DNA from: Streptosporangium amethystogenes
GTDB taxonomy: Bacteria; Actinomycetota; Actinomycetes; Streptosporangiales; Streptosporangiaceae
DNA length: 38,080 nt
Direction of reading: 5' to 3'
Assembly: GCF_000721075.1 (NCBI RefSeq)
Contig: NZ_JOEQ01000048.1
Location: 1-38,080, forward strand
Of the stretch, positions 3,267 to 28,415 are shown one piece after another. Position numbers and translations under genes: made by a program. Every line of letters begins with the position of its first letter. The first letter of the stretch is position 1. The notes below the pieces were generated by a model. It was not told the origin of the DNA and did no database searches. It worked only from the letters and a program-made list of their open reading frames with translations.

Positions 3267-3388
3267 CCCCGTGAGGAAGCGTCGGCGACTGGACTGAGGA
3301 GGGGGAGGTCGCGAGGAACGAGCGACCTCCCCCGACGAGGGAAGGAGCCGGACAAGAGCGGCCTCACCTCGACGCGCAGCGTCGCCAT
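3267..3388 (-). repeat. Intergenic multi-hairpin repeat, copy A
   Basis: This is the shortest copy of a six-member family. Read on the minus strand the order is: H1 hairpin (GCGACGC, loop TGC, then GCGTCG), GGTGAGGCCGCTCTTG, CTTCCCTCGTCG, the H3 stem-loop, then the core CTCAGTCCAGTCGCCG. On the plus strand H3 is GGGGGAGGTCGC (3301-3312), loop GAGGAACGA, GCGACCTCCCCC (3322-3333), a perfect 12-bp stem. The tail hairpins of longer copies are nearly absent. It lies between sodN and the rsbW-like gene, both rightward. No coding function is likely. Confidence 0.85.
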
Positions 3389-3508
3389 CTACACGACACG
3401 CGCTAGCTTCGTAATCAATACAGTCAAATCGCCCCGATCGCGAGTCCAAATGGGCCAACCACCGTCTCAGGGCTGTAGGTTGCAGTCAGCGACTCTGCGA
3501 GGAGGAAC

Positions 3509-3934
3509 GTGACCGAACACACCGAGGCGCCCGCAGTCGGCATGGGCGGGATCCGTGACGTGGTGAGCGTCCGGCTGCCGGCGACGAGTGCTTATCTATC
3601 CGTGCTGCGTACGGCGACAGCCGCACTTGCCGTACGGCTGGACTTCACGCTGGACGAGATCGAGGATCTACGGATCGCGGTCGATGAGGCGTGCGCGATG
3701 CTGCTGACCCAGGCCGTCCCCGGCACCGATCTGACCGCCGAGTTCGAACTCACCGGGCAGTTGATGAAGGTGCGGGTCGAGGTCAGCACGGTGGGAAGCA
3801 CCCCCCCGAAGCGCGACGATTTCGCGTGGATGGTGCTCACCGCCCTGGCTGATGATGTGGATGCCGTAACCGACTCCCCCGACCGTATGGCGATCGTCCT
3901 CCGCAAGCGCCGAGGCGCGGCGAGGCCGGCGTGA
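3509..3934 (+). CDS. RsbW-like anti-sigma factor
   Basis: Proteins of this family bind SigB/SigF-type sigma factors and release them when an anti-anti-sigma factor takes over. The 141-residue protein resembles the HATPase fold of RsbW, with VSVRLPATSAYLSVLRTATA and then the N-box-like helix DLRIAVDEACAML near residues 50-62. The Asn that binds Mg-ATP in typical RsbW is not visible, and the glycine-rich ATP lid is replaced by DDFAWMVLTAL, so ATP binding and kinase activity are doubtful. The GTG start has the ribosome site GGAGGA eight bases upstream. It overlaps the downstream sigma gene by 4 bp, the classical anti-sigma/sigma pairing. Confidence 0.82.
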   Translation: MTEHTEAPAVGMGGIRDVVSVRLPATSAYLSVLRTATAALAVRLDFTLDEIEDLRIAVDEACAMLLTQAVPGTDLTAEFELTGQLMKVRVEVSTVGSTPPKRDDFAWMVLTALADDVDAVTDSPDRMAIVLRKRRGAARPA

Positions 3935-4731
3935 CGGAAAGGACTCGTGCCATGGCCGCCAGCGACCACGCGGTGCCCGACCGGGTGCGTGCGCGCCTGC
4001 TCTTCGCAGAGCTGGTGGAGTTGACCTCCGACGACCCCCGGCGCCAGCGCATCCGTGACGAGCTCGTCGAGCTCCACCTTCCCCTCGTCGAATATCTCGC
4101 CCGCCGGTTCCGCAACCGGGGCGAGTGGCTGGATGACCTCACACAGGTCGCGACCATCGGCCTGATCAAGTCGATCGACCGCTTCGATCTCGGCCGCGGT
4201 GTGGAGTTCTCCACCTACGCCACCCCGACGATCGTCGGTGAGATCAAACGTCACTTCCGTGACAAGGGCTGGGCGGTCCGTGTACCGCGTCGGCTTCAGG
4301 AGCTGAAGCTCTCGCTCACCAAGGCGATCAGTGAGCTCTCCCAGCGGGAGGGACGCGCGCCGACCGTGGCCGAGCTGGCCACGTTCCTGAAGATGAGCGA
4401 GGAGGAGGTGCTCGAAGGACTGGAGTCGGCCAACGCCTACTCCACGGTCTCCCTCGACGCGCCCGACTCCGGTGACGACGACGCGCCGGCGGTGGCCGAC
4501 TCCCTCGGCATCGTGGACGACTCCCTGGAGGGCGTCGAGTACCGTGAGTCGCTCAAGCCCCTGCTGGAGCGGCTGCCTCCGCGCGAGAAGCGAATCCTGC
4601 TGCTGCGTTTCTTCGGCAACATGACACAGTCTCAGATCGCCACCGAGCTCGGCATCTCGCAGATGCACGTGTCCCGGCTGCTCGCCAGGACACTCGCCCA
4701 GCTCCGCGAGGGCTTGACCGTGGACGACTAG
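3931..4731 (+). CDS. sigF: RNA polymerase sigma factor, SigB/SigF family
   Basis: This group 3 sigma factor directs RNA polymerase to stress or development promoters. The 266-residue protein shows region 2 (LPLVEYLARRFRNRGEWLD, then DDLTQVATIGLIKSIDRFD and FSTYATPTIVGEIKRHFRD), region 3 near residues 115-180, and a region 4 helix-turn-helix (TQSQIATELGISQMHVSRLL). The GTG start overlaps the preceding anti-sigma gene. An in-frame ATG at 3952, preceded by GGAAAGG, would give a protein 7 residues shorter. Co-translation with the RsbW-like protein implies tight stoichiometry. Actinobacteria carry several SigF paralogues, so exact orthology is uncertain. Confidence 0.88.
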   Translation: MTERTRAMAASDHAVPDRVRARLLFAELVELTSDDPRRQRIRDELVELHLPLVEYLARRFRNRGEWLDDLTQVATIGLIKSIDRFDLGRGVEFSTYATPTIVGEIKRHFRDKGWAVRVPRRLQELKLSLTKAISELSQREGRAPTVAELATFLKMSEEEVLEGLESANAYSTVSLDAPDSGDDDAPAVADSLGIVDDSLEGVEYRESLKPLLERLPPREKRILLLRFFGNMTQSQIATELGISQMHVSRLLARTLAQLREGLTVDD

Positions 4732-4798
4732 GGCCCGCCTGGCAGGTCCTGCCGTGGCGGGGATCGGTCAGGTGGTGCCTCGTAAGGCGGAGGAGGGA

Positions 4799-4816
4799 AC
4801 CGCGGTGGGCCGCGGT
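4799..4816. terminator. Hairpin between convergent sigF and membrane protein gene
   Basis: The arms ACCGCGG and CCGCGGT pair perfectly around TGGG. Its place between two converging genes fits a bidirectional terminator. A smaller hairpin (GGCAG/CTGCC) lies at 4741-4753, just after the sigma gene. Confidence 0.6.
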
Positions 4817-4861
4817 GACCGGTGACGCGGCGAGGCCCCGTCTGACCAACCCCGCGACTGC

Positions 4862-5290
4862 CTACTCCTGGTCCCCGTAGAGGGCGTGCGTCGTCGGCGG
4901 GGACAGTAGCGTGACCAGTCCGATCACCGCCAGGGTGATCAGCGAGATGCCGATCACCAGTTGGTCGGACTGGATCAGCGTGATCGAGATCGGGGTGGCG
5001 AAGATCTGCGTCAGCACGCCCGGACTCCGGGACCACCGCTCGGTGAGGATCATGCCCCATCCGACCCAGAGCAGAGCCGCACCGATGATGATCCCGGACA
5101 CCGCGACGGCGATCGAGGTCATCAGGTCGGACGGCTGGCCGATCACGGTCTCCACTCCGACGTAGCCGCCGAGGAGCAGAGCGGTGGCGCCTTCCACCGC
5201 CATGACGGCGGCGGCGACGGTGAGGGTCATCGGACGGTTCGACACGCTGTCAACCCTATCGCCGAGGGGGGCCGCACCGTTCTTTGCCAT
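4862..5290 (-). CDS. Integral membrane protein of unknown function
   Basis: The 142-residue protein has a short polar N-terminus (MAKNGAAPLGDRVDSVSNRP) followed by about four hydrophobic helices: roughly residues 20-42 (TLTVAAAVMAVEGATALLL), 55-80 (SIAVAVSGIIIGAALLWVGW), 90-105, and 110-132 (VIGISLITLAVIGLVTLL). There is no cleavable signal peptide. It resembles small actinobacterial membrane proteins of no assigned role. It is divergent from the diacylglycerol kinase gene with a 69-bp gap. No functional motif is visible. Confidence 0.75.
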   Translation of the reverse strand: MAKNGAAPLGDRVDSVSNRPMTLTVAAAVMAVEGATALLLGGYVGVETVIGQPSDLMTSIAVAVSGIIIGAALLWVGWGMILTERWSRSPGVLTQIFATPISITLIQSDQLVIGISLITLAVIGLVTLLSPPTTHALYGDQE

Positions 5291-5347
5291 CTTGGCTTGG
5301 ACCTTGGCGGAAGGTCGGGTTTCGACGGAAGTTCGGGGCTCGGCGGA

Positions 5348-5353
5348 TACGCT
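5348..5353 (+). promoter_or_regulatory. -10 hexamer of the diacylglycerol kinase gene, leaderless
   Basis: TACGCT fits the actinobacterial -10 pattern TANNNT and ends 6 nt before the ATG at 5360. No ribosome binding site fits, so the mRNA probably begins at or next to the start codon. No clear -35 is seen. Confidence 0.45.
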
Positions 5354-5359
5354 GGGATT

Positions 5360-6319
5360 ATGCGCGCGATGCTCCTGGTGAATCCGAAGGCGACGACGAC
5401 CAACCAGCGGACCAGGGATGTGCTCATCAGAGCGCTGAGCGCGACGATGAACCTGACCGTCGAGGAGACCGGCTACCGGGGGCACGCGACACAGCTCTCC
5501 CGCAAGGCCCACGCCTCCGGTTACGACGTGCTGGCCGTCCTGGGCGGTGATGGCACCATCAACGAGGCAGTGAACGGGCTGCTCGACCCGGTGGACGGAA
5601 AGGGTGGCGACGAGGGCAGCTCGGCCGACCGGCCGGCACTGCTGGCCATCCCCGGCGGCAGTGCCAATGTCTTCGCCAGGGCCCTCGGCCTGCCGAACAG
5701 CCCGGTCGAGGCGGTAGGGGCGATCCTGGAGGCGATCCGTGACGGCCGGCAGCGAATCGTCGGCCTCGGTCAGGCGATCTGGGATGGCCAGACTAGATAT
5801 TTCACGTTCTGCAGTGGCCTGGGGTACGACGCCGAGGTGGTCAGGGCGGTCGAAGGGATACGAGGCACCGGCCGTAAGGCCACGCCCGCACGCTATGTGA
5901 ACACCGCGTTACACCACTACCTGTCGACGGACAAGCGTCATCCCTCGATGACCGTCGAGGGGCCGGAGGTGCCGCCGACCGGCGGCATCTACATGGCCGT
6001 CGTCTCCAACACCTCACCCTGGACGTACATCGGCCCGCGGCCGGTCTCACCGACCCCGTGGGCGAGCTTCGAGACCGGCCTTGACCTGCTGGGACTGCAA
6101 CGCCTGGGCCTGCCGAGCATGCTCCAGCTGATACCTCAGATCATCGGTGCCCGCGACACCCTGCCCACCGGCCGTCACCTGGTGCAACTTCACGACGAGA
6201 GAGAGTTCACGCTGAGTGCCGAGCGGCCCGTGGCGTTTCAGCTGGACGGGGACTATCTGGGGGAGGTTGAGCGAATAACGTTCCGCTCTATCCCTAATGC
6301 GTTACGAGTCGTGGTCTAA
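5360..6319 (+). CDS. Diacylglycerol/lipid kinase family protein
   Basis: Enzymes of this family phosphorylate diacylglycerol or related lipids with ATP and act at the cytoplasmic face of the membrane. The 319-residue protein opens MRAMLLVNPKA. It has the DAGK catalytic glycine motif GGDGTINEAVNGL near residues 61-73 and PGGSANVFARALGLP near 100. The C-terminal beta domain ends FQLDGDYLGEVERITF, typical of the YegS/DgkB fold. The start is set by the family N-terminus and the -10 just upstream. The substrate could be diacylglycerol or another lipid alcohol; the sequence alone does not decide. Confidence 0.88.
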   Translation: MRAMLLVNPKATTTNQRTRDVLIRALSATMNLTVEETGYRGHATQLSRKAHASGYDVLAVLGGDGTINEAVNGLLDPVDGKGGDEGSSADRPALLAIPGGSANVFARALGLPNSPVEAVGAILEAIRDGRQRIVGLGQAIWDGQTRYFTFCSGLGYDAEVVRAVEGIRGTGRKATPARYVNTALHHYLSTDKRHPSMTVEGPEVPPTGGIYMAVVSNTSPWTYIGPRPVSPTPWASFETGLDLLGLQRLGLPSMLQLIPQIIGARDTLPTGRHLVQLHDEREFTLSAERPVAFQLDGDYLGEVERITFRSIPNALRVVV

Positions 6320-6410
6320 CCCATTACGTCCCGTCATCGTGTGACGCATCCGACATCCATTTCAGGCAAAACGTTCTCCCAAACCTCTTGCGTGTACTGA
6401 GCGTGGCTGA

Positions 6411-6424
6411 CAATCTCGAGATTG
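6411..6424. promoter_or_regulatory. Perfect 14-bp palindrome upstream of whiB1
   Basis: CAATCTCGAGATTG is fully self-complementary. It sits in the 279-bp gap between the lipid kinase and whiB1 genes, about 175 bp before the whiB1 ATG. It looks like a dimeric regulator operator, and a TTGACG hexamer overlaps its right edge (6422-6427). The regulator is unknown. Confidence 0.45.
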
Positions 6425-6531
6425 ACGTCGGAACGTAGGACCTTTGAGCGGTACCCCGCTCCCAGGCCATCGGCGATCAAGCGGACGCGCCCCGAGCCGA
6501 ACCCCGGATCGGGGAGTTGTTCGCGCTGGTT

Positions 6532-6547
6532 AGTGAAACTCTTCACA
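6532..6547. promoter_or_regulatory. CRP/FNR-family binding site upstream of whiB1
   Basis: AGTGA-N6-TCACA (6532-6536 and 6543-6547) differs from the classical CRP consensus TGTGA-N6-TCACA at one base. In Mycobacterium tuberculosis the whiB1 promoter is controlled by the cAMP receptor protein Rv3676, so a site 52 bp before the whiB1 start codon fits a conserved cAMP input. The transcription start is not known here. Confidence 0.6.
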
Positions 6548-6598
6548 AAGTGAGCCGCTGGAGCGCGTAAGGGCTCCTCTTTACTAAGGAGTGGACGC

Positions 6599-6853
6599 AT
6601 GGACTGGCGCCACCGAGCTGCCTGCCGTGACGTGGACCCCGAGCTGTTCTTCCCGATCGGCAACACCGGCCCCGCCCTGATGCAGATCGAAGAAGCGAAG
6701 CAGGTCTGCCGTACTTGCACCATCAGTGAAGCATGCCTGAAGTGGGCACTGGAATCCGGGCAGGACGCCGGCGTCTGGGGCGGCCTGAGCGAGGACGAGC
6801 GACGCGCCTTCAAGCGACGTACGGCCCGCGCCCGCGCCCGCAGTAGTGTCTGA
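6599..6853 (+). CDS. whiB1: WhiB-family iron-sulfur regulator WhiB1/WblE
   Basis: WhiB1 carries an NO-sensitive [4Fe-4S] cluster and acts with the primary sigma factor as a transcription regulator; it is essential in mycobacteria. The 84-residue protein has the four cluster cysteines Cys9, Cys37, Cys40 and Cys46 (VCRTCTISEAC), the GVWGG turn near residues 58-62, and a basic C-terminal tail FKRRTARARAR for DNA contact. The ribosome site AAGGAG lies 7 nt before the ATG. The next gene, pdtaS, is convergent, the same order as Rv3219-Rv3220c in M. tuberculosis. A repeat copy fills the gap between them. Confidence 0.95.
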   Translation: MDWRHRAACRDVDPELFFPIGNTGPALMQIEEAKQVCRTCTISEACLKWALESGQDAGVWGGLSEDERRAFKRRTARARARSSV

Positions 6854-6855
6854 CT

Positions 6856-7061
6856 GCGACGCGTGCCTTTGGCGACGCTAACGCGTCGCGGTGAGACCGC
6901 TCTTACCCGGCTCTGTACTGTCGGCGACGCTAACGCATCGCAGTGAGACCGCTCTTACCCGGCTCCTTCCCTCGTCGTTCATCCGCTTCACTCCTCAGTC
7001 CAGTCGCCGGCGCGGCCTCACGGTCGTCCCTTGGGCAGGGCATGGGCACGTCCCGAGGTGG
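6856..7061 (+). repeat. Intergenic multi-hairpin repeat, copy B
   Basis: It begins just after the whiB1 stop codon. A full H1 hairpin (GCGACGC-TAAC-GCGTCGC from 6872) plus GGTGAGACCGCTCTTACC is followed by a second, partly decayed H1-H2 unit from 6924. Then come CTTCCCTCGTCG, a variant segment TCATCCGCTTCACTCC in place of the H3 stem, the core CTCAGTCCAGTCGCCGGCG, and a decayed tail. The remaining sequence to 7243, before the pdtaS stop, shows nothing I recognise and is less GC-rich. Confidence 0.83.
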
Positions 7062-7243
7062 CATCTGATCGGTCACCTGGGTGGCGTTGTGGTGAAGTGC
7101 GCTGGCCTGGTTTCCTACCTCTTCGTTTGTTCCGTTTCGCGTTGCGTCAACGGCGACGTCGCGCGTAGCGGTAGGGATGCTCCGCTTTTTGGCCCGGTCG
7201 GCGATGCGGCCTCGCTGTGAGGTTTCGATCTGATGCGGTTTTC

Positions 7244-8707
7244 CTACCCCGCGGGGAGGGGGATGCTCAGACTTACCTCGGTGCCGCCGCCCTGTCGCGG
7301 TTCGATGGCCAGCCGCCCGGACAACTCGCCCACCACCAGGGTCCGTACGATCTGCAACCCCAGACTGGTGGTCTGGTCCAGGTCGAAGTCCTCCGGCAAC
7401 CCGCTGCCGTTGTCGGACACGATCACGTCCAACCGCTCTGCCCCGCGCGACACGATCACCTGGAGTTTACCCTGACGCTGCGCCAGCCCGTGCTGGACCG
7501 CGTTCTGCAGCAACTCCGTGAGGACCATCGCCAGCGGCGTCGCGATCTCCGAGCGCAGCACCCCGAAGCTCCCGACCCGGCGCGGCACGACCTGTGTCTC
7601 CGGGGCCGCGACCTCTCCCGTCATCGCGATCACCCTGTCGGCGATGTCGTCGAAGTCCACCTGCTCCTCGGGCGTGTGGGAGAGCGTCTCGTGCACGATC
7701 GCGATCGACCCGACCCTGCGTACCGCCTCCTCCAGCGCCTCCCTGCCCTCCGGCAGCCGCAGCCGCCTGGCCTGGAGCCGCAGCAGCGCGGCCACCGTCT
7801 GCAGGTTGTTCTTCACCCGGTGGTGGATCTCCCTGATGGTGGCGTCCTTGGTCATCAGCTCTCGCTCGCGGCGGCGCAGCTCGGTCACATCCCTGATGAG
7901 CACCAGAGCGCCGATTCTCCCGCCACCGACGATCAGCGGGATCGCCCGCAGCTGCACGACGGTGCCGCCCGACTCCACCTCCGTCTCCCTGGGCTCTCGC
8001 CCGCTGGCGACGATCATCAGGTTCTCGTTGATGGGCTCGTCGGAGTAACAGAGCGTGGCGGTCGTACGGCCCAGCTCCGCACCGACCAGGTCGGCGGTGA
8101 GGCCCAGCCGCCGGTAGGCCGACAGCGCGTTCGGCGAGGCGTATGTGACACGGCCCGCCCGGTCGAGCCGGAGCAGCCCGTCACCCACCCGCGGCGAGCG
8201 GACCAGGATCGGCTCCGCGCCGGAGAACGGGAAGCGGCCCTCGGCCACCATCTGGGCCAGGTCGGAGGCGCTCTGCAGGTACGTCAGCTCCAGCCTGGAG
8301 GGGGTCCGCGCCGAGGACAGGTTCGTCGAGCGCTGGATGACGCCCAGGAAGTGGTCGGCCCGCCGCACGGGAATGGTCTCCTCGCGTACCGGCACCCCGC
8401 TCGACCAGTCCGGATCGCCCTCACGGCAGATACGCCGCTCGTTCCAGGCGGTCTCCAGCAGCGGCCGTTCGCCCTTCGCCGCGATCATGCCCACGATGTC
8501 GTCGTGATAGACGGTCGGCCCGGTGGTGGGCCGCATCTGCGCGATCGCGACCCAGCCGGAGCCGTCCTTCAGCGGGATCCACAGGATCAGGTCGGCAAAG
8601 GACAGGTCCGCGAGGAGCTGCCAGTCGGAGACCAGCGAGTGCATCCACTCCAGGTCCGCATCGTCGAGCGCGGTGTGACGAACCGCCAGGTCGCTTAGAG
8701 TCGGCAC
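7244..8707 (-). CDS. pdtaS: Sensor histidine kinase PdtaS
   Basis: PdtaS is a cytosolic histidine kinase that phosphorylates the antiterminator PdtaR in actinobacteria. The 487-residue protein has an N-terminal GAF-like H_kinase_N domain (about 5-140), a PAS domain (about 175-275), and a HisKA_2 dimerisation helix EIHHRVKNNLQTVAALLRLQ with the phospho-His at 295/296. An HWE/HisKA_2-type ATPase follows, with the N-box ELLQNAVQHG and G-box DNGSGLP. There are no transmembrane segments. The GTG start gives VPTLSDLAVRH, as in relatives. PdtaR is not in the window. The whiB1-pdtaS neighbourhood is conserved with M. tuberculosis. Confidence 0.92.
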   Translation of the reverse strand: MPTLSDLAVRHTALDDADLEWMHSLVSDWQLLADLSFADLILWIPLKDGSGWVAIAQMRPTTGPTVYHDDIVGMIAAKGERPLLETAWNERRICREGDPDWSSGVPVREETIPVRRADHFLGVIQRSTNLSSARTPSRLELTYLQSASDLAQMVAEGRFPFSGAEPILVRSPRVGDGLLRLDRAGRVTYASPNALSAYRRLGLTADLVGAELGRTTATLCYSDEPINENLMIVASGREPRETEVESGGTVVQLRAIPLIVGGGRIGALVLIRDVTELRRRERELMTKDATIREIHHRVKNNLQTVAALLRLQARRLRLPEGREALEEAVRRVGSIAIVHETLSHTPEEQVDFDDIADRVIAMTGEVAAPETQVVPRRVGSFGVLRSEIATPLAMVLTELLQNAVQHGLAQRQGKLQVIVSRGAERLDVIVSDNGSGLPEDFDLDQTTSLGLQIVRTLVVGELSGRLAIEPRQGGGTEVSLSIPLPAG

Positions 8708-8732
8708 TCGTGCATCATGCGTTCTTTCCAGG

Positions 8733-8749
8733 CCCGAACGCGAATCGGG
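8733..8749. promoter_or_regulatory. Inverted repeat between pdtaS and bioF
   Basis: CCCGA and TCGGG (arms 8733-8737 and 8745-8749) flank 7 bp in the 68-bp divergent gap. This is the only dyad in the gap and could be an operator for the biotin operon. It does not match the TGAAC-type BioQ site that I know of. Support is weak. Confidence 0.25.
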
Positions 8750-8775
8750 TGAGTCCTGCTGAAAAGATGCCGCTT

Positions 8776-9936
8776 ATGGAGCAGATCCCTGATCCGCTGG
8801 TCCGGTTCCGTGCGGCGGCGGCCACGAGGGAGGCCGCAGGGCTACGGCGGACCCTGCGCGCCCGCACACCGGACGACGACGGCCTCGTCGATCTGGCCTC
8901 CAACGACTACCTCGGCCTGGCCAGAGACGAGCGGCTGGCCGAGGCGGCCGTGGCGGCGACACGCACCTGGGGTACCGGCTCCACGGGTTCCCGCCTGGTC
9001 ACCGGCTCCACGAGCCTGCACGCGCGCCTGGAGGCACGGCTGTGCGCCTTCACCGGCGCGGAGGGCGCCCTGGTGTTCTCCTCCGGCTACCTGGCCAACC
9101 TGGCCGCCGTCGCGACTCTGGGCAGGGGCGCCCTGGTGGTCTCCGAGGCGGGCAACCACGCGTCGATAGTGGACGCCTGCCGGCTGTCGCGCTCGCGGGT
9201 CGTGGTCACCCCGCACCGGGACGTCGCCGCCGTGGAGCGGGCGCTGGCCTGCCGGGACGAGGAGCACGCGATCGTGGTCACGGACGCGGTCTTCTCCGTG
9301 GACGGCGATCTGGCCCCACTCGCGGAGCTGTACGCGGCGACGGTGCGGCAGGGTGCGCTGCTGGTCGTCGACGAGGCCCACGCGATCGGGGTCATCGGGC
9401 CGCGCGGACAGGGCGCCGTGCACGCCGCGGGGCTGGCGGCCGAGCCGGGCATTGTGAGAACGATCACACTGTCCAAGTCCCTGGGCTCCCAGGGTGGAGC
9501 CGTACTGGCCGCGCCCGAGGTGATCCAAACCCTTGTGGACACAGGCCGGTCGTTCATCTTCGACACCGGGCTGGCACCCGGCAGCGTGGCCGCGGCACTC
9601 GCCGCTGTCGATATCCTTCACCATCAGCCCGAACTGCCCGGACGCGTGCGAACCATGGCGAGGGAGCTGGCCGCTATGGCCCGCGATCTCGGCCTGGAAA
9701 GCGGCGATCCAGCGGGTGGGGTCGTCCCCGTCGTGCTCGGCCCACCCGAGATCGCACTTCGGGCCGCCCTCATCTGTGCGGAACACGGGGTGCGCGCCGG
9801 ATGCTTCCGGCCGCCCTCGGTGCCGGTCGGCCGCTCTTGCCTGCGCTTGACGGCACGGGCCAATCTGAGTTCCGACGATCTAGCGGTGACCAGGGGTGCA
9901 CTCACCGCCGTGGCCGAGATGAAGGTGACCATGTGA
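8776..9936 (+). CDS. bioF: 8-amino-7-oxononanoate synthase
   Basis: BioF is a PLP enzyme that condenses pimeloyl-ACP (or -CoA) with L-alanine to 8-amino-7-oxononanoate, the first step of biotin ring assembly. The 386-residue protein shows the alpha-oxoamine synthase features [35 protein letters not shown], the cofactor Asp in [15 protein letters not shown], and the PLP-binding Lys in [12 protein letters not shown]. The ATG at 8776 has GAAAAG at a sensible distance; an ATG at 8767 is the alternative. Its stop overlaps the GTG of the next gene by 4 bp, so it heads an operon with a regulator, bioD and bioB. Confidence 0.93.
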
Positions 9937-20318: not shown

Positions 20319-20613
20319 TGGCGACGCTACGCGTCGCGGCTCGGCCACCTGTATACGGCGACACTGCGCGTCGTGGTGAGACCGCTCTTGTCCGGCTCCT
20401 TCCCTCGTCGACCGGGGCCGCTCGTACCTCACGAGCTGCCGGCGACGCTGACGCGTCGCGGTGAGACCGCTCTTACCCGGCTCCTTCCCTCGTCGACCGG
20501 GGCCGCTCGTACCTCACGACCCCGCTCTCCTCAGTCCAGTCCCCGGCGCGGCCTTACGGGAAGTCCCTCAGGGGAAGGGCTGGGGCACATCCCAGGGGTG
20601 CTTCTTGGGGCGG
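20319..20613 (+). repeat. Intergenic multi-hairpin repeat, copy C
   Basis: This copy has three H1 hairpins (GCGACGC-TAC-GCGTCGC from 20320, a decayed one from 20358, and one with loop TGAC from 20442). The H2-to-H3 segment occurs twice in tandem (about 20375-20435 and 20460-20520). H3 in the second unit is CGGGGCCGC (20498-20506), loop TCGTACCTC, ACGACCCCG. One core and one tail follow. The element lies between the HD-GYP gene start and the epimerase gene end. The 180 bp to its left (20138-20318) carry the HD-GYP promoter region, with nothing else recognised. Confidence 0.85.
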
Positions 20614-21664: not shown

Positions 21665-21787
21665 ACGGCCAGGCCATGACCGTTTCGAACCCAGGAACCA
21701 TAACAGGGAAGCGGTTCACCTGCCGGATGAACCCGGCGGCCAGTCGGCACACGCGATGACCACGACCGTACGGAAGCTCCGGAGAGG

Positions 21788-22054: not shown

Positions 22055-22118
22055 GCGATCACCTCACCCAGGGGTGTCAAGGCCGCCGGGGCGGAATCGC
22101 CGTTCCTGTCTCGCTCGC

Positions 22119-22841
22119 TCACTTCGCACCTTCCGCGGGAACCAGGCCACGCTCGCGGGCGTAGTCCTCAAGTTGGGTCCGCAGCTGGCGACGGCCCCGG
22201 TGCAGCCGCGACATCACGGTCCCGATGGGGGTCCCCATGATGTCCGCGATCTCCTTGTACGGGAAGCCCTCGACGTCGGCGAGATAGACCGCGATGCGGA
22301 ACTCCTCGGGAAGCGCGGCCAGCGCTCGCTTCACGTCGGTGTCCGGGAGGTGCTCCAGCGCCTCGACCTCCGCCGACTTCAACCCCGCCGAGGTGTGCGA
22401 CTCGGCCCTGGCCAGCTGCCAGTCCTCAATCTCCTCGGCGCCCGACTGCTTGGGCTCCCGCTGCTTCTTGCGGTAACTGTTGATGAAGGTGTTGGTCAGA
22501 ATTCGGTAAAGCCACGCTTTGAGGTTCGTGCCTTGCTGGAACTGGTGAAAGGACGCGAACGCCTTGGCGAAGGTCTCCTGAAGAAGGTCCTCGGCGTCCG
22601 CGGGGTTCCGGGTCATCCGAAGCGCGGCGGAGTAGAGCTGGTCGAGATAGGGCATGACATCCCGCTCGAACCGTGTGCTCCGCTGCTCCAGAGTCTCCTC
22701 GTCTGTCGCAGGGACCGGACCCACCCCCTTAAGATCGCCGGAGTCCTGCTGACGCGGGACACCGTACTGAGCGGAGAATACCCGCTCACCGGGGATGGCC
22801 CGATCACCGGGGCGGGTGACGGGTTCGATCAAGGCGAGCAT
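22119..22841 (-). CDS. sigR: ECF sigma factor SigR (thiol-oxidative stress)
   Basis: SigR directs transcription of thioredoxin, mycothiol and protein-quality genes under disulfide stress. The 240-residue protein closely follows Streptomyces SigR from [19 protein letters not shown] onward, with region 2 ([38 protein letters not shown]) and region 4 ([38 protein letters not shown]). The N-terminal ~55 residues are variable in the family. The ATG at 22841 has GGAGG 11 nt upstream. S. coelicolor makes long and short SigR isoforms from two promoters; a similar choice of start is possible here. A SigR-type promoter lies upstream. Confidence 0.94.
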
Positions 22842-22882
22842 CTGCTTGCCAACCTCCGAAAGGATCGTGCGTTGTCCGCTTG

Positions 22883-22910
22883 CAACACGCTCGTCCAGTC
22901 ATCTGTTCCC
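22883..22910 (-). promoter_or_regulatory. SigR-type promoter of sigR (autoregulation)
   Basis: On the minus strand GGGAAC, 18 bp of spacer and GTTG match the SigR/SigH consensus GGGAAT-N18-GTT at all but one base. The expected start point is about 35 nt before the sigR ATG. This is the positive autoregulation known for sigR and sigH genes. Confidence 0.75.
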
Positions 22911-23010
22911 GCAAGATAGAAGGTGACGAACGACCCGGTACGGGGAAAAGAAGATACGTACCGGTAGGTAATCAAAGACCACCGGATCCTCCCGACGCCA
23001 GGAGCTGCTT

Positions 23011-23751
23011 GTGCTGCCCATCCCGGCCGAAGAGCTGAACGGCTCAGGTGCGCTCGGGCCGTACTGGACCTTTTATCACGCGGTCGTGGCCGAGCAACTG
23101 AGTCGATGGCTGCCGGAAACCCCCTCCACCGTCCTCGACATGTCCTGCGGCAACGGCCGCTGGGCCGTCCAGGCGGCGAAGGCGGGACACCGGGTGATCG
23201 AAATGGTCGACTTCCGCCGGCCCGCGGACGATCAGCCGCTGCACGACATCTCCAGGGTCAGCCAGGTACGCGCCGACGACCTGCGCTTCCTGCCCGACTG
23301 CAGCGTGGACGCCGTACTCGCCGAGGAACGGGCGATGTCCGTGGAGCTCATGGCCGAGTCCGCGATCGACGATGTCGCCAGGGTTCTGCGTCCCGGCGGC
23401 CGGACACTGGTCTGCGTCGACTCCCTGGTACTGGGGATGGCGATCCTCGCCGAGCAGAACTACTGGGCCCACCTGCGCCAGACCGGCGAGGTCATGCTCG
23501 TTCCCTGGCCCGACGGCAGCATCACCCGCTGCTTCAGCAGCGCCCAGCTCCGCGAGCTGCTCACCGAGGCGGGCCTGGAGGTCGAGTGGGTACGGCCCCG
23601 CACGGTGCTGTCCCCTTCGACCGTCGACCATGTGCTCGCCTCCGACTCCCGGGCGCTCACCTGGCTGGTCAACACCGAACTGGACACCCACCCCGACGAC
23701 GACGACACGGTGGGCATCCACCTGGTCGCCAGCGCGCGCCGACCTGTTTGA
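23011..23751 (+). CDS. Class I SAM-dependent methyltransferase
   Basis: The 246-residue protein has the Rossmann methyltransferase core: motif I VLDMSCGNGRWAVQAAKAG (about 42-60), an acidic end of strand 2 (VIEMVDFR), DLRFLPDCSVDAVLAEERAM, and VLRPGGRTLVCVD. The C-terminal part may hold the substrate site. The GTG start has AGGAG 6 nt upstream. It is divergent from sigR with a 169-bp gap. The acceptor substrate cannot be told. The second base of motif I is less glycine-rich than in typical members. Confidence 0.8.
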   Translation: MLPIPAEELNGSGALGPYWTFYHAVVAEQLSRWLPETPSTVLDMSCGNGRWAVQAAKAGHRVIEMVDFRRPADDQPLHDISRVSQVRADDLRFLPDCSVDAVLAEERAMSVELMAESAIDDVARVLRPGGRTLVCVDSLVLGMAILAEQNYWAHLRQTGEVMLVPWPDGSITRCFSSAQLRELLTEAGLEVEWVRPRTVLSPSTVDHVLASDSRALTWLVNTELDTHPDDDDTVGIHLVASARRPV

Positions 23752-23753
23752 TT

Positions 23754-24158
23754 GCGACGCTAACGCGTCGCGGTTCGGGCGTACCCATGGCGACGCTAAC
23801 GCGTCGCGGTTCGGGCGTACCCATGGCGACGCTAACGCGTCGCGGTGAGGCCGCTCTTACCCGGCTCCTTCCCTCGTCGAGGGAGGTCGCTCGTACCTCG
23901 CAACCTCCCTCTCCTCAGTCCAGTCGCCGGCGCGGCCTCACGGGTAGTCCCCCAAAGGGAGGAGTGAGGCACGTCCCCGGGGTGCTTCTTGGGGTGGGAG
24001 AACGCGCCCCTTCTCCTCAGTCCAGTCGCCGGCGCGGCCTCACGGGTAGTCCCTCAAGGACAGAGCACGAGGCACGTCCTCAGGGGATTCTTGAGGCGGG
24101 TGGACGGTGCGTCCCTTCGGGAGGGATCACGGACACGTCCCCAGGAACTTCTCGGGAG
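23754..24158 (+). repeat. Intergenic multi-hairpin repeat, copy D (longest)
   Basis: It begins 2 bp after the methyltransferase stop. Three H1 hairpins recur with an exact 36-bp period (23754, 23790, 23826), the first two linked by GGTTCGGGCGTACCCATG. H2, CTTCCCTCGTCG and H3 follow: GGGAGGTCGC 23881-23890, loop TCGTACCTC, GCAACCTCCC. The core plus tail then appears twice (from 23913 and 24016), and a third tail unit runs to 24158, touching the stop codon of the convergent DksA-like gene. The element fills the whole 407-bp gap. Confidence 0.88.
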
Positions 24159-24491
24159 TCAGCGTCGGCGTTCGCGTTTGGACTGGCACTGGAGGCAGCG
24201 GGCGGCTTCGGGGCGTGCCTCCAGCCTGCCCTCCGGGACGGGCGCGGCGCAGTCCGCACAGAGTCCGTAGCACCCCTCGTCCATCCGCCTGAGCGCCTCG
24301 ATCACCGAACCCCGGTGCCGGGTGGCCCCCTCCAGCAGTGCCCGGTTGCGGTCGGAGTCGGTCAGCTCGGAACCGGCGTCCGCCGGGGAGCGGTCCCCCG
24401 CGGCGGGTGAATCTCCGCGAAGGACTCCGATGGAACGGTCAAGTTCGGCGAGCATGTTCTTCAGGCGCTCGCGCGCGGTCGCGACATCCAC
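24159..24491 (-). CDS. DksA/TraR-family zinc-finger protein
   Basis: DksA/TraR proteins bind RNA polymerase through its secondary channel and alter promoter kinetics. The 110-residue protein has a helical N-terminus (TARERLKNMLAELDRSIGVL), a central region with SELTDSDRNRALLEGATRHR, and a C-terminal C4 zinc finger: CYGLCADC, then CLQC after 17 residues. The usual DxxDxA coiled-coil tip is not clear. The GTG start has GGAGG 9 nt upstream. Its stop codon touches repeat copy D. The RNA polymerase role is inferred from the family only. Confidence 0.83.
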   Translation of the reverse strand: MDVATARERLKNMLAELDRSIGVLRGDSPAAGDRSPADAGSELTDSDRNRALLEGATRHRGSVIEALRRMDEGCYGLCADCAAPVPEGRLEARPEAARCLQCQSKRERRR

Positions 24492-24670
24492 GAATCCGCA
24501 CCTCCGGAAAGCGGGGGCGGCCTGGGAGGGGGTCCCCGACTCTCCCGTCAGGCGCAAGGGGTGAGTTCTGGCGACGGTGATCTCGCCCACTTGTCGCGAG
24601 TCACCGCTTTCCTCAGCGGATGCCCACTTGGCGAAAGTTTTACACCGGATCGACCGGCGTTTTCAGAAGA

Positions 24671-24685
24671 GCGGCCGACGGCCGC
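24671..24685 (-). terminator. Hairpin after the SRAP peptidase gene
   Basis: GCGGCC and GGCCGC pair around GAC, 7 bp beyond the stop codon of the SRAP gene, a probable terminator. The gap to the DksA-like gene is 201 bp and holds its promoter region. Confidence 0.45.
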
Positions 24686-24692
24686 CCTCCCC

Positions 24693-25424
24693 CTACCGCA
24701 GCGGCTCGACGAGCTCGGGGCTGTTGTTACGCACCGAGTTGACCGCGGTGGAGACCGGATAGACCTCCAGCCCGGTGGAGCCCGCGGGGATCAGAAACTC
24801 CCGCGCGTCGGTCACTCCCGGGTCGAGCCACTCACCCCACCGGTCGCGCTCGATCAGCATCGGCATCCGATCGTGTACCGCACCGGCCTCGTCCACGGCG
24901 TCGGTCGTGATGATCGTGCAAGTCACCAGCCAGGAGAGCGGGTCGTCTTCGGTCCGGCCCCGGTCCCGCCAGAACTCGTACAGCCCCGCCATGGCCAGCA
25001 CGCCGCCGTCGGCGGGGCGGACGAAGTAGGGCTGCTTCTTCGGTCTGCCCTTGGCGTCCTTCTCATCGAGCACGACCCACTCGAAATAGCCGTCGGCGGG
25101 CAACAGGCACCTGCGCTCCGCGAACGCCTTGCGGTAGGCGGGTTTCTCCGCCACCGTCTCCACCCGCGCGTTGATCATCTTTGAGCCGATGGAAGGGTCC
25201 TTGGCCCAGGCCGGGACCAGTCCCCAGCGGACCACGCGGAGCTGCCGGACCGGTCGGCCGTCCGGATCGGACTTCGGCACCCGGCTCATCACCGCGTACA
25301 CCGGTTTCGTGGGCGCGACGTTGTAGTCGGGCCTGAGTTCGTCGTCGGCCGCGCCGTCAAGCTCGACCTGGAACTCCTCCAGCAACTCGTGCTTGCCCCG
25401 CGTAGACGCGTATCTCCCGCACAT
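24693..25424 (-). CDS. SOS response-associated peptidase (SRAP/YedK/HMCES family)
   Basis: SRAP proteins crosslink to abasic sites in single-stranded DNA through the alpha-amino and thiol groups of Cys2, protecting the site during replication. The 243-residue protein starts MCGRYAS, so Cys2 is in place after Met removal. The other active-site parts are present: Asn in YNVAPTKPV, NARVETVAEKPAYRKAF, Glu in ADGYFEW, and His in AVHDRMPMLI. The ATG at 25424 is fixed by the Cys2 requirement. It is divergent from aroA, with repeat copy E between them. Confidence 0.93.
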   Translation of the reverse strand: MCGRYASTRGKHELLEEFQVELDGAADDELRPDYNVAPTKPVYAVMSRVPKSDPDGRPVRQLRVVRWGLVPAWAKDPSIGSKMINARVETVAEKPAYRKAFAERRCLLPADGYFEWVVLDEKDAKGRPKKQPYFVRPADGGVLAMAGLYEFWRDRGRTEDDPLSWLVTCTIITTDAVDEAGAVHDRMPMLIERDRWGEWLDPGVTDAREFLIPAGSTGLEVYPVSTAVNSVRNNSPELVEPLR

Positions 25425-25457
25425 ATCCCCACTCTGCCACGCCACGGCACACCGGAA

Positions 25458-25669
25458 ACTCCCCAGAGAAGCACCAAGATCTCTCCTCACGGACGCCCCG
25501 TTCTCCCACCCCGAGAATCGCCCCGGGGACGTGCCCCATGCCCTCCCCTTGGGGACTCCCCGTGAGGCCGCGCCGGCGACTGGACTGAGGAACGAAGGAG
25601 CGAAGCGGATGAGCGACGAGGGAAGGAGCCGGATCCCAGCGGCCGAACCGCGACGCGCAGCGTCGCCAT
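25458..25669 (-). repeat. Intergenic multi-hairpin repeat, copy E (divergent promoter region)
   Basis: Read on the minus strand: H1 (GCGACGC-TGC-GCGTCGC, 25650-25666), a variant second segment GGTTCGGCCGCTGGGATCC, CTTCCCTCGTCG, a variant TCATCCGCTTCGCTCC in place of H3 (as in copy B), the core near 25565-25590, TCCCC-AA-GGGGA, and CCCCG...CGGGG. A decayed extra tail follows toward 25458. It occupies most of the 267-bp space between the SRAP and aroA starts, so it must overlap one or both promoters. Confidence 0.83.
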
Positions 25670-25678
25670 ATACACAGC

Positions 25679-25684
25679 TAGGCT
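25679..25684 (+). promoter_or_regulatory. -10 hexamer of aroA, leaderless, abutting repeat copy E
   Basis: TAGGCT fits TANNNT and ends 7 nt before the aroA ATG. A 17-bp spacer puts the -35 at 25656-25661, inside the H1 hairpin of repeat copy E. No canonical -35 is seen there. Confidence 0.5.
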
Positions 25685-25691
25685 TTTAGCC

Positions 25692-26969
25692 ATGTCCGCT
25701 CCGCTGTGGCCCGCGCCGACCGCGACCGAACCCGTCCGCGCGACCGTTCCCCTGCCCGGGTCGAAGTCCGTGACCAACCGCGCACTGCTGCTCGCCGCGC
25801 TGGCCGAGGGACCCGGCACGGTACGGCTGGCGCTGCGCAGCCGCGACGCCGATCTGATGGCGGACGCGCTGCGGGCACTGGGCGCGACGATGACCCCCTC
25901 CAACGAGAGCGCCTCAAGCGTCGACTGGGCGATCATGCCCGGCCCCGTCATCAGCGGCGCCCACATCGACGTGGGGCTGGCGGGCACGGTCATGCGCTTC
26001 GTACCGCCCATGGCGGCACTGGCCAGGGGCGAGGTGTTCTTCGACGGCGACCCGCACGCGCGTAAGCGCCCGATGGGCCCGATCCTGCGCGCGCTGCGCG
26101 CCCTCGGCGCCGAGGTGACCGGCGACGCACTGCCTTTCACCGTCAGGGGGCCGCTGACCGGCGGCGAGGTCAGGCTCGACGCGTCGGGCTCCTCTCAGTT
26201 CCTCTCCGGCCTGCTGCTGACCGCCGCGCGCTTCGAGAAGGGCGTGACGGTACGCCACGACGGCCCGCCGATTCCCTCGCAGCCGCACATCCAGATGACC
26301 GTTCAGATGCTGCGCGAGTTCGGCGTCGTGGTGGACGACTCCGAGCCGGACGTCTGGCGGGTCGAACCCGGCCCTATCGAGGCGAGGGACTTCACGGTCG
26401 AGCCCGACCTGTCCAACGCGGCGCCTTTCCTGTCCGCCGCCATGGTGACAGGCGGCACGGTCACCATTCCCGACTGGCCCGTACGGACGACCCAGCCTGG
26501 TGACCAGTTGCGCACGCTGCTGGCCGACATGGGTGCCTCGGTGGAGTACACGGCCGAAGGGCTGGCGGTCACCGGTACCGGGCGAATCACCGGAATCGAG
26601 GCGGACCTGCGCGACGTGGCCGAGTTGACCCCGACGATCGCCGCGCTGGCCGCTCTCGCCGACTCCCCCAGCAGGATCAGCGGTGTCGCCCACATCCGCG
26701 GGCACGAGACCGACCGGCTGGCCGCTCTGGTCGCGGAGATCAACGGTCTCGGCGGCGACGCGAACGAGACCGAGGACGGCCTGGAGATTCGGCCCCGACC
26801 GCTCACCGGCGGCGTGTTCCACTCCTACGCCGACCACCGGATGGCCACCGCCGGAGCGGTCATCGGTCTGGCCGTGCCCGGCGTCGAGGTGGATGACATC
26901 GCCACCACGGGTAAGACCCTCCCCGAGTTCACCTCGATGTGGGCGAACATGCTGCGCGGCGCGCGGTGA
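25692..26969 (+). CDS. aroA: 3-phosphoshikimate 1-carboxyvinyltransferase (EPSP synthase)
   Basis: AroA transfers the enolpyruvyl group of PEP to shikimate 3-phosphate, the sixth step of the shikimate pathway to chorismate. The 425-residue protein shows [20 protein letters not shown] near the N-terminus (shikimate-phosphate binding), [12 protein letters not shown] where many bacteria have [27 protein letters not shown], and [12 protein letters not shown] near 385. The ATG follows a leaderless-type -10. The next gene, rsgA, starts 83 bp downstream on the same strand, and the pair is often linked in actinobacteria. Confidence 0.95.
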
Positions 26970-27052
26970 GGGGCGACCGGCCGGCAGGCCCAGGAGGCGC
27001 CCGGTAGTCATGGCCCTTCGCGGGGCGCACCGGGCCGGACAAGGCGGAGAAA

Positions 27053-28105
27053 CTGAGAAAGCGCGAGTACGACGAGGAAGACGTCAGGGTCAGGCCGGGA
27101 AAGGGATCCCGGCCCCGGACCCGGATCCGTCCTGCCCATGAGAACGCGGTCCCGGCGTTCGTGGTCGCCGTCGACCGCGGGCGCTACACGTGCCTGGTCG
27201 AGTCGGAGGGCGAGCGGGGGCGCCGCCGCAAGCGGGACCAGGCGGAGGGCGCCGCGATGAGCGGCCGGGTCGTGGTCGCGATGAAGGCACGCGAGCTGGG
27301 CCGCAAGGGGATCGTGGTCGGCGACCGGGTGGCCCTGGTGGGCGACGTCTCCGGGATGACCGACACGTTGGCCCGCGTCGTGCGGGTGGAGCCCCGCGTC
27401 TCCATGCTCCGCCGCTCCGCGGACGACACCGACAACACCGACGGCATCGAGCGCCCCGTGGTCGCCAACGCCGACCAACTCGTCATCGTGACGGCCCTGG
27501 CCGATCCGCCGCCCCGGCCCCGCATGATCGATCGGATGCTGGTCGCGGCCTTCGACGCCGACATCGAGCCGCTGCTCTGCCTCACCAAGTCCGATCTCGC
27601 CTCGCCCGACGAGTTGGTCTCGCTGTACGCCCCCCTCGGCGTGCCGTACGTGGTGGTCTCCAAGGGCGGCGACCTGGTGGAGGTGCGGGAGCGCCTCAAG
27701 AGCCGGATCAGCGTGCTCGTCGGCCATTCCGGGGTGGGTAAGTCAACCCTGGTCAACGCCCTGGTACCGGACGCCAACCGAGCCGTCTCACACGTGAACG
27801 CGGTGACCGGCCGGGGCCGTCACACCTCCACCTCCGCCGTCGCCCTCGAACTGCCGGAGAGTGGCTGGATCATCGACACCCCCGGGGTGCGCAGCTTCGG
27901 TCTGGCCCACGTCTCGGTGGAGACGGTCCTGGCGGGCTTTCCCGACCTGATCGAGGGCACCATCCAATGCCCGAAGGGCTGCAATCACCTCTCGGAGGAG
28001 TGCGCCCTGGACGCCTGGGTAGCCGCCGGCCACGCCGACCAGGTCCGCCTGACCTCCCTACGCCGCCTCCTCGCCAGCCGCGAAGGCGCCTCCGACGACG
28101 ACTAA
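27053..28105 (+). CDS. rsgA: Ribosome small-subunit-dependent GTPase A
   Basis: RsgA is a circularly permuted GTPase that checks late maturation of the 30S subunit. The 350-residue protein has an OB-fold N-domain (about 36-85) and a permuted G-domain with G4 LTKSDLA and then G1 GHSGVGKST and G3 DTPGVRSFG. A C-terminal zinc site CPKGCNHLSEEC follows. The family N-terminus (REYDEEDVRVRPGKGSRPRTR) is encoded upstream of the first in-frame GTG (27161), but no ATG or GTG opens it. I placed the start at CTG 27053, preceded by AAGGCGGAG. If translation began at 27161, about 36 conserved residues would be lost. Confidence 0.88.
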   Translation: MRKREYDEEDVRVRPGKGSRPRTRIRPAHENAVPAFVVAVDRGRYTCLVESEGERGRRRKRDQAEGAAMSGRVVVAMKARELGRKGIVVGDRVALVGDVSGMTDTLARVVRVEPRVSMLRRSADDTDNTDGIERPVVANADQLVIVTALADPPPRPRMIDRMLVAAFDADIEPLLCLTKSDLASPDELVSLYAPLGVPYVVVSKGGDLVEVRERLKSRISVLVGHSGVGKSTLVNALVPDANRAVSHVNAVTGRGRHTSTSAVALELPESGWIIDTPGVRSFGLAHVSVETVLAGFPDLIEGTIQCPKGCNHLSEECALDAWVAAGHADQVRLTSLRRLLASREGASDDD

Positions 28106-28415
28106 CCCCAAGGAACACCACGAGCACGCCCCTCGTGCCCTTTCCTTGGGGGACTCCCCGTGAGACCGCACGACTGAACCGAGGAGAAGGACACTCCGCT
28201 CTCCCGCCCCAAGAATCACCCCGGGGACATGCCCCATGCCTCCCCTCTGGGGGACTCCCCGTGAGGCCGCGCCGGCGACTGGACTGAGGAGAGCGGGGTC
28301 GCGAGGAACGAGCGACCCCGGTTGACGAGGGAAGGAGCCGGGTAAGAGCGGCCTCACCGCGACGCGCCAGCGTCGCCATAGGCAGGCCCGAACCGCGACG
28401 CGCCAGCGTCGCCAT
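28106..28415 (-). repeat. Intergenic multi-hairpin repeat, copy F
   Basis: Read on the minus strand: two H1 hairpins (loop TGGC) with a 36-bp period, H2 GGTGAGGCCGCTCTTACC, CTTCCCTCGTC, and H3. On the plus strand H3 is CGGGGTCGC (28294-28302), loop GAGGAACGA, GCGACCCCG (28312-28320). The core lies near 28262-28290, and two tail units follow, the second decayed but with a perfect CACGAG/CTCGTG stem. It starts directly after the rsgA stop and ends 85 bp before hisN. Confidence 0.87.

Follow-up and report, generated by a model that had tools for sequence, protein, structure and literature searches.

What is the intergenic element that recurs through this part of the Streptosporangium amethystogenes genome, and how did it come to be there? 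The window, by which we mean the whole 38,080-nt stretch analysed, had been predicted to hold six copies of an ordered chain of hairpins (H1, H2, H3, a core, H5 and H6), confined to gaps between genes. The copies themselves are real, as the core CTCAGTCCAGTCGCCGGCG, with up to two mismatches, occurs seven times in the window and not once in 50 order-2 Markov windows, and they do sit between open frames bearing Pfam domains, in both orientations. The chain of hairpins, in contrast, was read from the wrong strand: the element is one nested structure followed by a single 3′ hairpin.

Fold and covariation of the GA-ladder element

The element is about 110 nt long (range about 90-125 nt) and folds on the strand opposite to that of the original prediction, in the order P1, P2, a tandem-GA ladder, a variable P3, the returning ladder, P2′, a bulge, P1′, the 3′ hairpin and a short tail. 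The ladder consists of Watson-Crick steps alternating with tandem G·A/A·G pairs (CTGGACTGAGGAG / CGACGAGGGAAG), with three tandem-GA steps in succession within one helix. H3 and the core are both present but not as separate units, since CTTCCCTCGTCG and the core form the two sides of one ladder helix that encloses P3, the former H3. H1 is the 3′ hairpin, which in nearly all aligned copies follows P1′ and thus lies outside the P1 arms. H2 did not survive the comparison: just 5 of the 45 aligned copies can form six or more of its seven pairs, and copy 5 lacks the H2 sequence. H5 and H6 correspond to a module of CCCC..GGGG hairpins, P0, found upstream of the element in Streptosporangium copies but not noticed in the copies inspected from other genera. 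The tail is weakly conserved: ACAC or ACAG occurs within 18 nt of the 3′ hairpin in 35 of 102 copies but over the following 18 nt in 9 of 102, and a universal ACAG tail was rejected because ACAG alone is found there in 23 of 102. The features of the window are collected in Table 1.

Table 1. Copies, partial copies and P0 modules of the element in the window.
Feature	Position	Strand	Basis and remarks
Copy 1, all parts from P1 to 3′ hairpin	3270..3387	+	Covariance-model E 9.6e-16; fold -65.5 kcal/mol, z -5.3; orthologue in near congener G003
5′-cut copy keeping 3′ hairpin, 3′ of copy 2	6861..6913	-	Repeat family D1; partial-copy scan (L004)
Copy 2, short P3	6922..7022	-	Covariance-model E 1.7e-14; fold z -3.95, complement z -0.49
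Two 5′-cut copies, 3′ hairpin in each	20319..20439	-	Partial-copy scan, L013 right partial 40-118; blastn
Copy 3, full	20440..20558	-	Covariance-model E 1.4e-16; fold -62.6 vs -41.6 kcal/mol
P0 module, Streptosporangium type (CCCC..GGGG hairpins), upstream of copy 3	20559..20613	-	Repeat family D3
Two 36-nt 5′-cut pieces, each with 3′ hairpin	23751..23823	-	Repeat family D6; L005 right partials
Copy 4, full	23824..23942	-	Covariance-model E 3.8e-19; fold z -8.35
P0 module and older 3′-cut copy (P1-P2-5′ ladder; core 24016-24034)	23943..24158	-	Core matches, repeat families, blastn
P0 modules upstream of copy 5	25445..25560	+	Own genome vs G003
Copy 5, short P3, P1 with tandem G·A	25561..25668	+	Covariance-model E 1.5e-15; fold -40.7 vs -36.0 kcal/mol, z only -0.22
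Older 3′-cut copy and P0 module, upstream of copy 6	28106..28259	+	Repeat family D9
Copy 6, full	28260..28378	+	Covariance-model E 1.0e-17; fold -74.7 vs -60.9 kcal/mol
5′-cut copy directly 3′ of copy 6	28379..28415	+	Repeat family D14; partial-copy scan (L008)

The element strand folds more stably than its complement in all six window copies (for example, -77.0 vs -62.0 and -46.5 vs -27.2 kcal/mol), with a small margin in copy 5, whose fold is no better than shuffles; the P1 helix of copy 1 is partly broken, with AA facing GG. RNA folding z-scores range from -3.85 to -8.35 in four of five copies and reach -1.02 in the remaining one. Under DNA parameters P1, P2 and the 3′ hairpin form as well, but the ladder does so only in part. 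The folded strand is probably RNA, with single-stranded DNA as the alternative.

Covariation, measured by pair counts with shuffles in place of R-scape, is strong. Among 106 distinct copies, 29 of 36 pairs change on both sides, with a score of 0.377 compared with 0.101 for shuffled and at most 0.041 for slid alignments; an earlier 45-copy alignment gave double-sided changes in 19 of 36 pairs. The 3′ hairpin covaries, and even within the conserved ladder there is change: in 10 of 105 cells one pair has flipped from G-C to C-G, and in 8 of 106 another has gone from C-G to G·U. The mismatches are biased to one strand, with 167 G·U against 21 A·C (83 against 21 without one mostly-U·G ladder position) and 818 G·A against 6 C·U (195 against 6 without six ladder positions). 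Alignment A2 was fitted to the model. Its loci, for the most part, and those of A1 were retrieved with patterns in which the ladder boxes are fixed, so these boxes are invariant largely by construction. The covariation supports selection on the folded single strand, and the fold is shown to be under selection on one strand.

Copy number, spread and signs of mobility

The expectation of very many copies per genome was too high, as a genome-wide search does extend the family beyond the window but to tens of copies only. The 9.44-Mb genome yields 29 core matches at up to two mismatches, 38 blastn pieces and 30 matches to the covariance model, of which 24 have E<1e-3. Six of these 24 strong matches fall in this 38-kb contig where about 0.1 would be expected, so the window is a hotspot of the element in its own genome, and copies cluster locally in contigs C48, C7 and C2. 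The core is present in 135 of 345 genomes of the order, with up to 61 copies per genome, while a reversed-pattern control gave no match in the genomes listed. In a distant genus, 60 of 150 genomes carry a variant core, and in one of these (G1093) 19 of 26 listed core strings are identical. The element seems to have dispersed into the gene gaps of many soil actinobacteria. A covariance-model scan of the phylum, in which nine candidates were scored per genome, was positive in 2 of 396 genomes including the own genome, a lower bound. Presence is patchy among congeners, and genome-specific subfamilies of copies are seen.

Comparison with relatives reveals empty sites. The site at 23740-24170 measures 431 nt in the window and 30 nt in the near congener G003, and one gain plus one exact loss, instead of two gains, is a possible history for it. 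The site at 25445-25690 spans 37-39 nt in 11 of 15 congeners, and an insert at an operon junction is absent from all six relatives examined (of 14). At the site of copy 1, the copies of several congeners look eroded.

Nested and tandem copies are common. Ten loci have a 3′-cut copy on the left and a 5′-cut copy on the right, and in six of these the halves are complementary with 2-3 nt missing. Slippage at CGYGAGG words, which accompany three of the six nested cases, can partly yield the nested pattern in those three; the other three pairs lack the word. Four loci with both kinds of partial copy (L001, L005, L020 and L042) do not fit nesting. Tandem full copies are spaced 98-126 nt apart, tandem 36-nt pieces are also seen, and 5′-cut copies, which keep the 3′ end in the manner of SINEs, are found in 38 loci compared with 15 for 3′-cut copies (p=0.002). 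No constant or general target-site duplication was found across 102 copies: a flank word of at least eight letters is shared in 18 of them, where about six are expected, and 17 of these 18 have a neighbouring copy. Two single sites, L135 and L155, have duplicated words at their flanks.

It is well supported that the element disperses, inserts intergenically and into itself, amplifies in genome-specific subfamilies and decays in place. The original prediction had named a structured RNA, a MITE/REP-like passenger and a regulatory site as candidates; covariation bears out a folded strand, and a mobile passenger finds support in the empty sites, the nesting and the amplification peculiar to single genomes, while the notion of a cis-regulator of one gene class finds no support in the genes around the copies (below). 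A plasmid or phage passenger was rejected, as one 247-nt query had no plasmid or phage blastn match at E<=1e-5 and the single match to the exact core pattern in a viral-contig collection lies on a contig, perhaps host DNA, that carries an SNF2-helicase gene with an intein.

The analysis found no partner enzyme, and neither of the two families tested, reverse transcriptases and Y1 transposases, is required. Of 20 element-rich genomes, 12 carry RVT_1 and eight do not, and 11 of 20 element-free genomes carry it too; a reverse transcriptase as required partner was rejected on these counts. A Y1 (IS200/REP-type) transposase was rejected in the same role because Y1_Tnp finds no match in 5 of the 20 element-rich genomes. 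Taken by itself, the distribution of Y1_Tnp (15 of 20 element-rich vs 9 of 20 element-free genomes) leans towards an association with element-rich genomes.

Genomic neighbours and known families

In tandem gaps the element is sense in 44 loci and antisense in 18 (p=0.0013) and the upstream gene is codirectional in 65 of 95 loci, counts that rest on rough gene calls and a non-random sample of loci. Copies are found inside codirectional gene pairs and in divergent gaps, often just 3′ of a stop codon, and some lie inside operons at stop and start codons, such as L131 and L157, which we take to be the purF-purM and carB-pyrK junctions. The neighbours have no common function: in a Pfam scan of 139 of 175 neighbour proteins, with long ones cut to 480 residues, 189 families were found, the commonest in five.

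The original prediction knew of no named family, and Rfam agrees. At gathering scores, nothing in release 15 matches the element, whether in the window or in 21 related loci, the three matches obtained there (two tRNAs and one ribosomal protein leader) falling in other parts of the loci; around two copies in L043, a search at E up to 5 returned five matches, all far below gathering scores. A known RNA family was thus rejected, since none matched in Rfam, while the type of evidence is shared, as Rfam structured RNAs show covarying stems around a near-invariant core and the element has covarying helices on one strand. No open-access title among the matches listed describes the element, subscription papers being mostly outside that search, and the string CTGGACTGAGGAG is absent from the open-access papers searched.

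Tandem sheared G·A pairs are a protein-binding structure in OLE RNA and kink-turn RNAs; unlike these, the element has three consecutive tandem-GA steps, and no three-nucleotide kink-turn bulge was seen. MITEs are small, non-coding, dispersed and presumably moved in trans. The element shares these traits but has no terminal inverted repeats at both ends, as the 3′ hairpin sits outside the P1 arms, and no general target duplication; a parent transposon was not found.

REPs, according to PMC3733652, are 20-40 bp palindromes with an unpaired tag, divided into GTAG and CGTC super-families; for the CGTC REPs no dedicated transposase seems to exist, and most of them terminate in a CCA-like tail. Like the REPs and RAYTs described there, the element forms short intergenic palindromic repeats, dimers and clusters, and the Streptosporangium 3′ hairpin happens to resemble the CCA-like tail. 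Unlike those single palindromes, it folds into two domains over about 110 nt, and what it conserves is the internal GA ladder. The words Streptosporangium, Nocardia and Actinobacteria are absent from the main text of PMC3733652 and from a paper on intrastrand triplex repeats (PMC4666352). The bcr1 repeats, in the parts of PMC6542083 and PMC2267715 that characterise them, are about 150-170 bp long, average 39 copies per strain, and have mobile features and a predicted conserved secondary structure; their mobility is tied to a TTTAT motif, and they are said to occur in the Bacillus cereus group alone. They resemble the element as small, structured repeats with tens of copies and mobile features; those parts mention no GA ladder, a separation by description rather than by sequence.

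Competing explanations and significance

On balance, we consider it probable that the element represents an undescribed family of small non-coding, non-autonomous mobile elements that are recognised as a folded single strand. A trans-acting factor would recognise this strand through the near-invariant GA ladder, the copy would be made or joined starting at the 3′ end, so that new copies tend to keep the 3′ hairpin, and sense placement beside genes would mean either that the element is transcribed or that the opposite orientation is selected against. A bolder version, which we consider doubtful, is a bacterial mobile RNA: a short non-coding GA-ladder RNA that propagates itself to new sites, starting at its 3′ end, and depends not on the usual reverse transcriptases or hairpin transposases but on a host or undescribed ladder-reading enzyme. 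Reverse transcription in trans from the 3′ end, as in a SINE-type retroelement, would fit the excess of 5′-cut copies, the covarying 3′ hairpin and the sense bias, but is unlikely in view of the RVT_1 counts, the existence of 3′-cut copies and the weakly conserved tail. Movement of a REP- or MITE-like DNA element by a Y1 (IS200/RAYT) transposase acting on single-stranded hairpins would suit intergenic hairpin DNA in tens of copies, with Y1_Tnp somewhat commoner in element-rich genomes; the element-rich genomes without Y1_Tnp, the lack of general target duplication and of terminal inverted repeats in P1, and a length far above that of REPs make it decidedly unlikely.

A structured RNA useful to the host, whether an intercistronic or 3′-UTR element or a small RNA with a conserved protein partner, spread by duplication and gene conversion, could explain the strong constraint on the fold, the sense bias with codirectional upstream genes and the placement at stop and start codons within operons. 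We regard it as fairly unlikely, as its neighbours share no function, nested and tandem copies are common, and presence among congeners is patchy with several eroded copies. Local satellite growth of an old hairpin by tandem duplication, slippage and homologous exchange, with no real transposition, is quite improbable: tandem copies and pieces, contig clusters and the four loci unexplained by nesting speak for it, whereas isolated copies between unrelated genes, cleanly empty sites, the recurrence of the same core in distant genera and the three nested pairs without CGYGAGG speak against it. Transcription terminators or DNA/nucleoid sites are highly improbable despite the many copies just downstream of stop codons, because the 18 nt that follow the 3′ hairpin contain a four-T run in a single one of 102 copies and TTT in three, copies also lie inside codirectional pairs and in divergent gaps, and the G·A and G·U bias is confined to one strand; the earlier view that these are not simply terminators stands.

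In small mobile repeats of bacteria it is usually the ends that stay constant. Here the constant part is an internal folded ladder, while the stems diverge through compensating changes, which makes the folded strand itself the likely recognition target. It is present in about two fifths of the searched genomes of the order and in a distant genus, yet has no Rfam match. Copies at stop/start junctions within operons may alter expression, and a search for a new mobilising enzyme or RNA-binding protein could start directly from the element.

A nested fold on the purine-rich strand

Whereas the original prediction described a chain of hairpins on one strand of each copy, the complement of that strand gives a single nested fold followed by a 3' hairpin, in the order P1, P2, CTGGACTGAGGAG, P3, CGACGAGGGAAG, P2', bulge, P1', 3' hairpin and short tail. 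The two conserved boxes pair on either side of the variable hairpin P3 as a ladder of, in order, C-G, U-A, (bulged G), G.A, A.G, C-G, U.G or C-G, G.A, A.G, G-C, G.A, A.G and G-C, and the bulge between P2' and P1' measures 5-6 nt in five copies folded. RNAfold recovers the ladder unaided in 5/5 copies (z -5.9, -4.1, -8.4, -3.9, -1.0), and the purine-rich strand folds more stably than its complement in 6/6 window copies; the fold of copy 5 is no better than shuffles (z -0.22). With DNA folding parameters P1, P2 and the 3' hairpin form, the ladder only partly. The tail is weakly conserved, with ACAC or ACAG no more than 18 nt from the hairpin in 35/102 copies versus 9/102 in the next 18 nt. Upstream of Streptosporangium copies lies an additional module of CCCC/GGGG hairpins, P0, itself tandemly repeated at one locus (L054), which may represent a further domain or an independent passenger.

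An alignment of 45 copies chosen by pattern, in which the boxes are therefore invariant by construction, shows both-sided changes at 19/36 pairs. At E<=1e-3 the covariance model built from it retrieves 114 matches, 106 of them distinct, across 98 loci; the distinct ones, fitted to the model and mostly from loci also fetched by pattern, change on both sides at 29/36 pairs, with a covariation score of 0.377 versus 0.101 for shuffled alignments and at most 0.041 for slid structures. The covariation that the original prediction had named as a check was thus found, by pair counts compared with shuffles. One ladder pair is G-C in 95 copies and reversed to C-G in 10, a second reads C-G in 97 and G.U in 8, and in P1 and P2 tandem G.A steps swap with Watson-Crick pairs. 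Among 20 copies in loci fetched from a distant genus, three positions left free by the script take only the coupled forms CT..G (10), GC..T (9) and CC..G (1). The excess of G.U over A.C (167 to 21; 83 to 21 once one ladder position is set aside) and of G.A over C.U (818 to 6; 195 to 6 once the six ladder positions are) points to the purine-rich strand as the folded one. Both the fold and the strand that forms it are well demonstrated.

Copy number and distribution

All six predicted repeat stretches are present in the window, a complete contig (C48) in which the core occurs 7 times versus 0 in 50 order-2 Markov windows. The 9.44-Mb genome holds 29 core sites at <=2 mismatches, 38 blastn pieces and 30 covariance-model matches, 24 with E<1e-3. 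Six of these 24 lie inside the window, which is therefore a hotspot and not a genome average, and the extrapolation from its density to very many copies per genome does not hold. Contigs C7 and C2 carry further hotspots (see table).

Positions of elements and associated features
Feature	Position	Strand
Copy 1 (site 1)	3270..3387	+
P0 module	20559-20613	
431-nt interval	23740-24170	
P0 module	23943-24001	
Copy 5 interval	25445-25690	
P0 module	25445-25560	
Copy 5	25561..25668	+
rsgA/inositol-phosphatase gap	28100-28440	
P0 module	28207-28259	
Hotspot, contig C7	241-273 kb	
Hotspot, contig C2	15-18 kb	
Transposase-like gene end, locus L057	about 1620-1900	

Searched with a pattern for the strand originally described, 7/60 genomes have matches, our own included, and a collection of 84,980 species yields 11 stretches in nine species or MAGs, namely two of Streptosporangium, two of Planotetraspora, one each of Thermocatellispora, Actinomadura and Micromonospora, and one MAG each of Nocardiopsis and Streptosporangiaceae. 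The folded-strand pattern matches 15/394 genomes sampled across the class, every one of them from the same family, and 135/345 genomes of the order, the richest having 61 copies; a reversed-pattern control has 0 matches among the genomes listed in the order scan. A variant occurs in 60/150 genomes of a genus in another family (g44), with up to 39 copies. Of the 26 core strings listed for one genome (G1093), 19 share a single sequence, which suggests recent amplification. The single match in a viral collection (L220) adjoins an SNF2-type helicase gene with an intein carrying a LAGLIDADG domain.

Empty sites, junctions and gene context

Dispersal of the element is well supported. We compared the rsgA region across fifteen congeners. 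The 431-nt interval, for which the comparison covers 14 of them (G015 left out), shrinks to 30 nt in G003, whose left flank is 98% identical, and to 21-42 nt in G010, G002, G008 and G013; G005 has the same element type and G006 an element of another subfamily, and no element is seen in the 57-294 nt of G014, G009, G011, G001, G007, G004 and G012. In G012 (L198) this gap is filled by a different tandem GC-rich repeat (CCCCTAGGAGGTCCTGTCCGAGGT-like). The copy 5 element is common to the window and G003, with 37-39 nt in 11/15 congeners, 49 nt in G014, and other sequence in G005 (148 nt) and G015 (257 nt). Site 1 holds an intact or almost intact copy in the window, where AA stands opposite GG in P1, as well as in G003 and G012; the copies of G005, G009 and G011 look eroded. 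In genus g277, G693 carries the element at an operon junction, between stop and start codon; in 6/6 relatives read, of 14, the element is missing and the genes either abut or overlap. The rsgA/inositol-phosphatase gap measures 341 nt in the window versus 522-1855 nt in 13 congeners measured of 15 (L190-L204), and therefore looks, from these lengths, like a favoured site of other insertions.

Partial or full neighbour copies lie on the left in 34 of 101 copies, on the right in 35 and on both sides in 17. Ten loci combine a 3'-cut copy on the left with a 5'-cut copy on the right; the halves are complementary in six (breakpoints 37|40, 37|41, 39|43, 33|37, 55|58, 29|33) and not in L001, L005, L020 and L042. 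The word CGYGAGG, which could have led to slippage, is present in three of the six (L018, L021, L051) and absent from L053, L153 and L197. Partial copies keep the 3' end at 38 loci versus the 5' end at 15 (p=0.002). A target-word search found at least 8 shared flank letters in 18/102 copies versus about 6 copies with mismatched flanks, but all except one of the 18 adjoin another copy; single sites do have ATGAG or ATGAAGAC on both sides.

By rough gene calls at 95 loci, tandem gaps hold 44 sense versus 18 antisense copies (p=0.0013); of the remaining loci 16 are convergent and 10 divergent, and 7 undetermined. Among 139 neighbour proteins scanned, of 175 extracted, the most frequent Pfam family is found in 5, and the 25 families listed, of 189, include none of transposases. 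At L143, L154, L155 and L157 the tail supplies or adjoins the start codon of the downstream gene, at L157 apparently also its ribosome-binding site.

Candidate partner enzymes and a proposed mode of copying

Twenty element-rich genomes were compared with twenty having zero copies by the strict pattern. RVT_1 occurs in 12/20 versus 11/20 and Y1_Tnp in 15/20 versus 9/20, and neither was found in G968, G989 and G1003, which carry 21, 21 and 28 copies, so neither family is required for carrying the element; possibly a partner was lost after the last burst. G851 has 21 Y1_Tnp matches and no element by the strict pattern. A stretch beside the copy in G003 (L057) looks like the terminal part of an IS200/IS605-type transposase gene, complete with a hairpin of its own.

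Rfam gave no match to the element, in line with the original prediction, which could name no such family, and no title describing it is among the literature matches listed. REPs and bcr1 repeats come closest in kind. Of the proposed MITE/REP-like passenger, the behaviour of a small mobile repeat stands, but the element fails the membership tests for both REPs and MITEs; it also fails the reverse-transcriptase test of a retroelement. We infer a mechanism in which a trans-acting factor would recognise the folded RNA or single-stranded DNA of the element, which would be copied from its 3' end.
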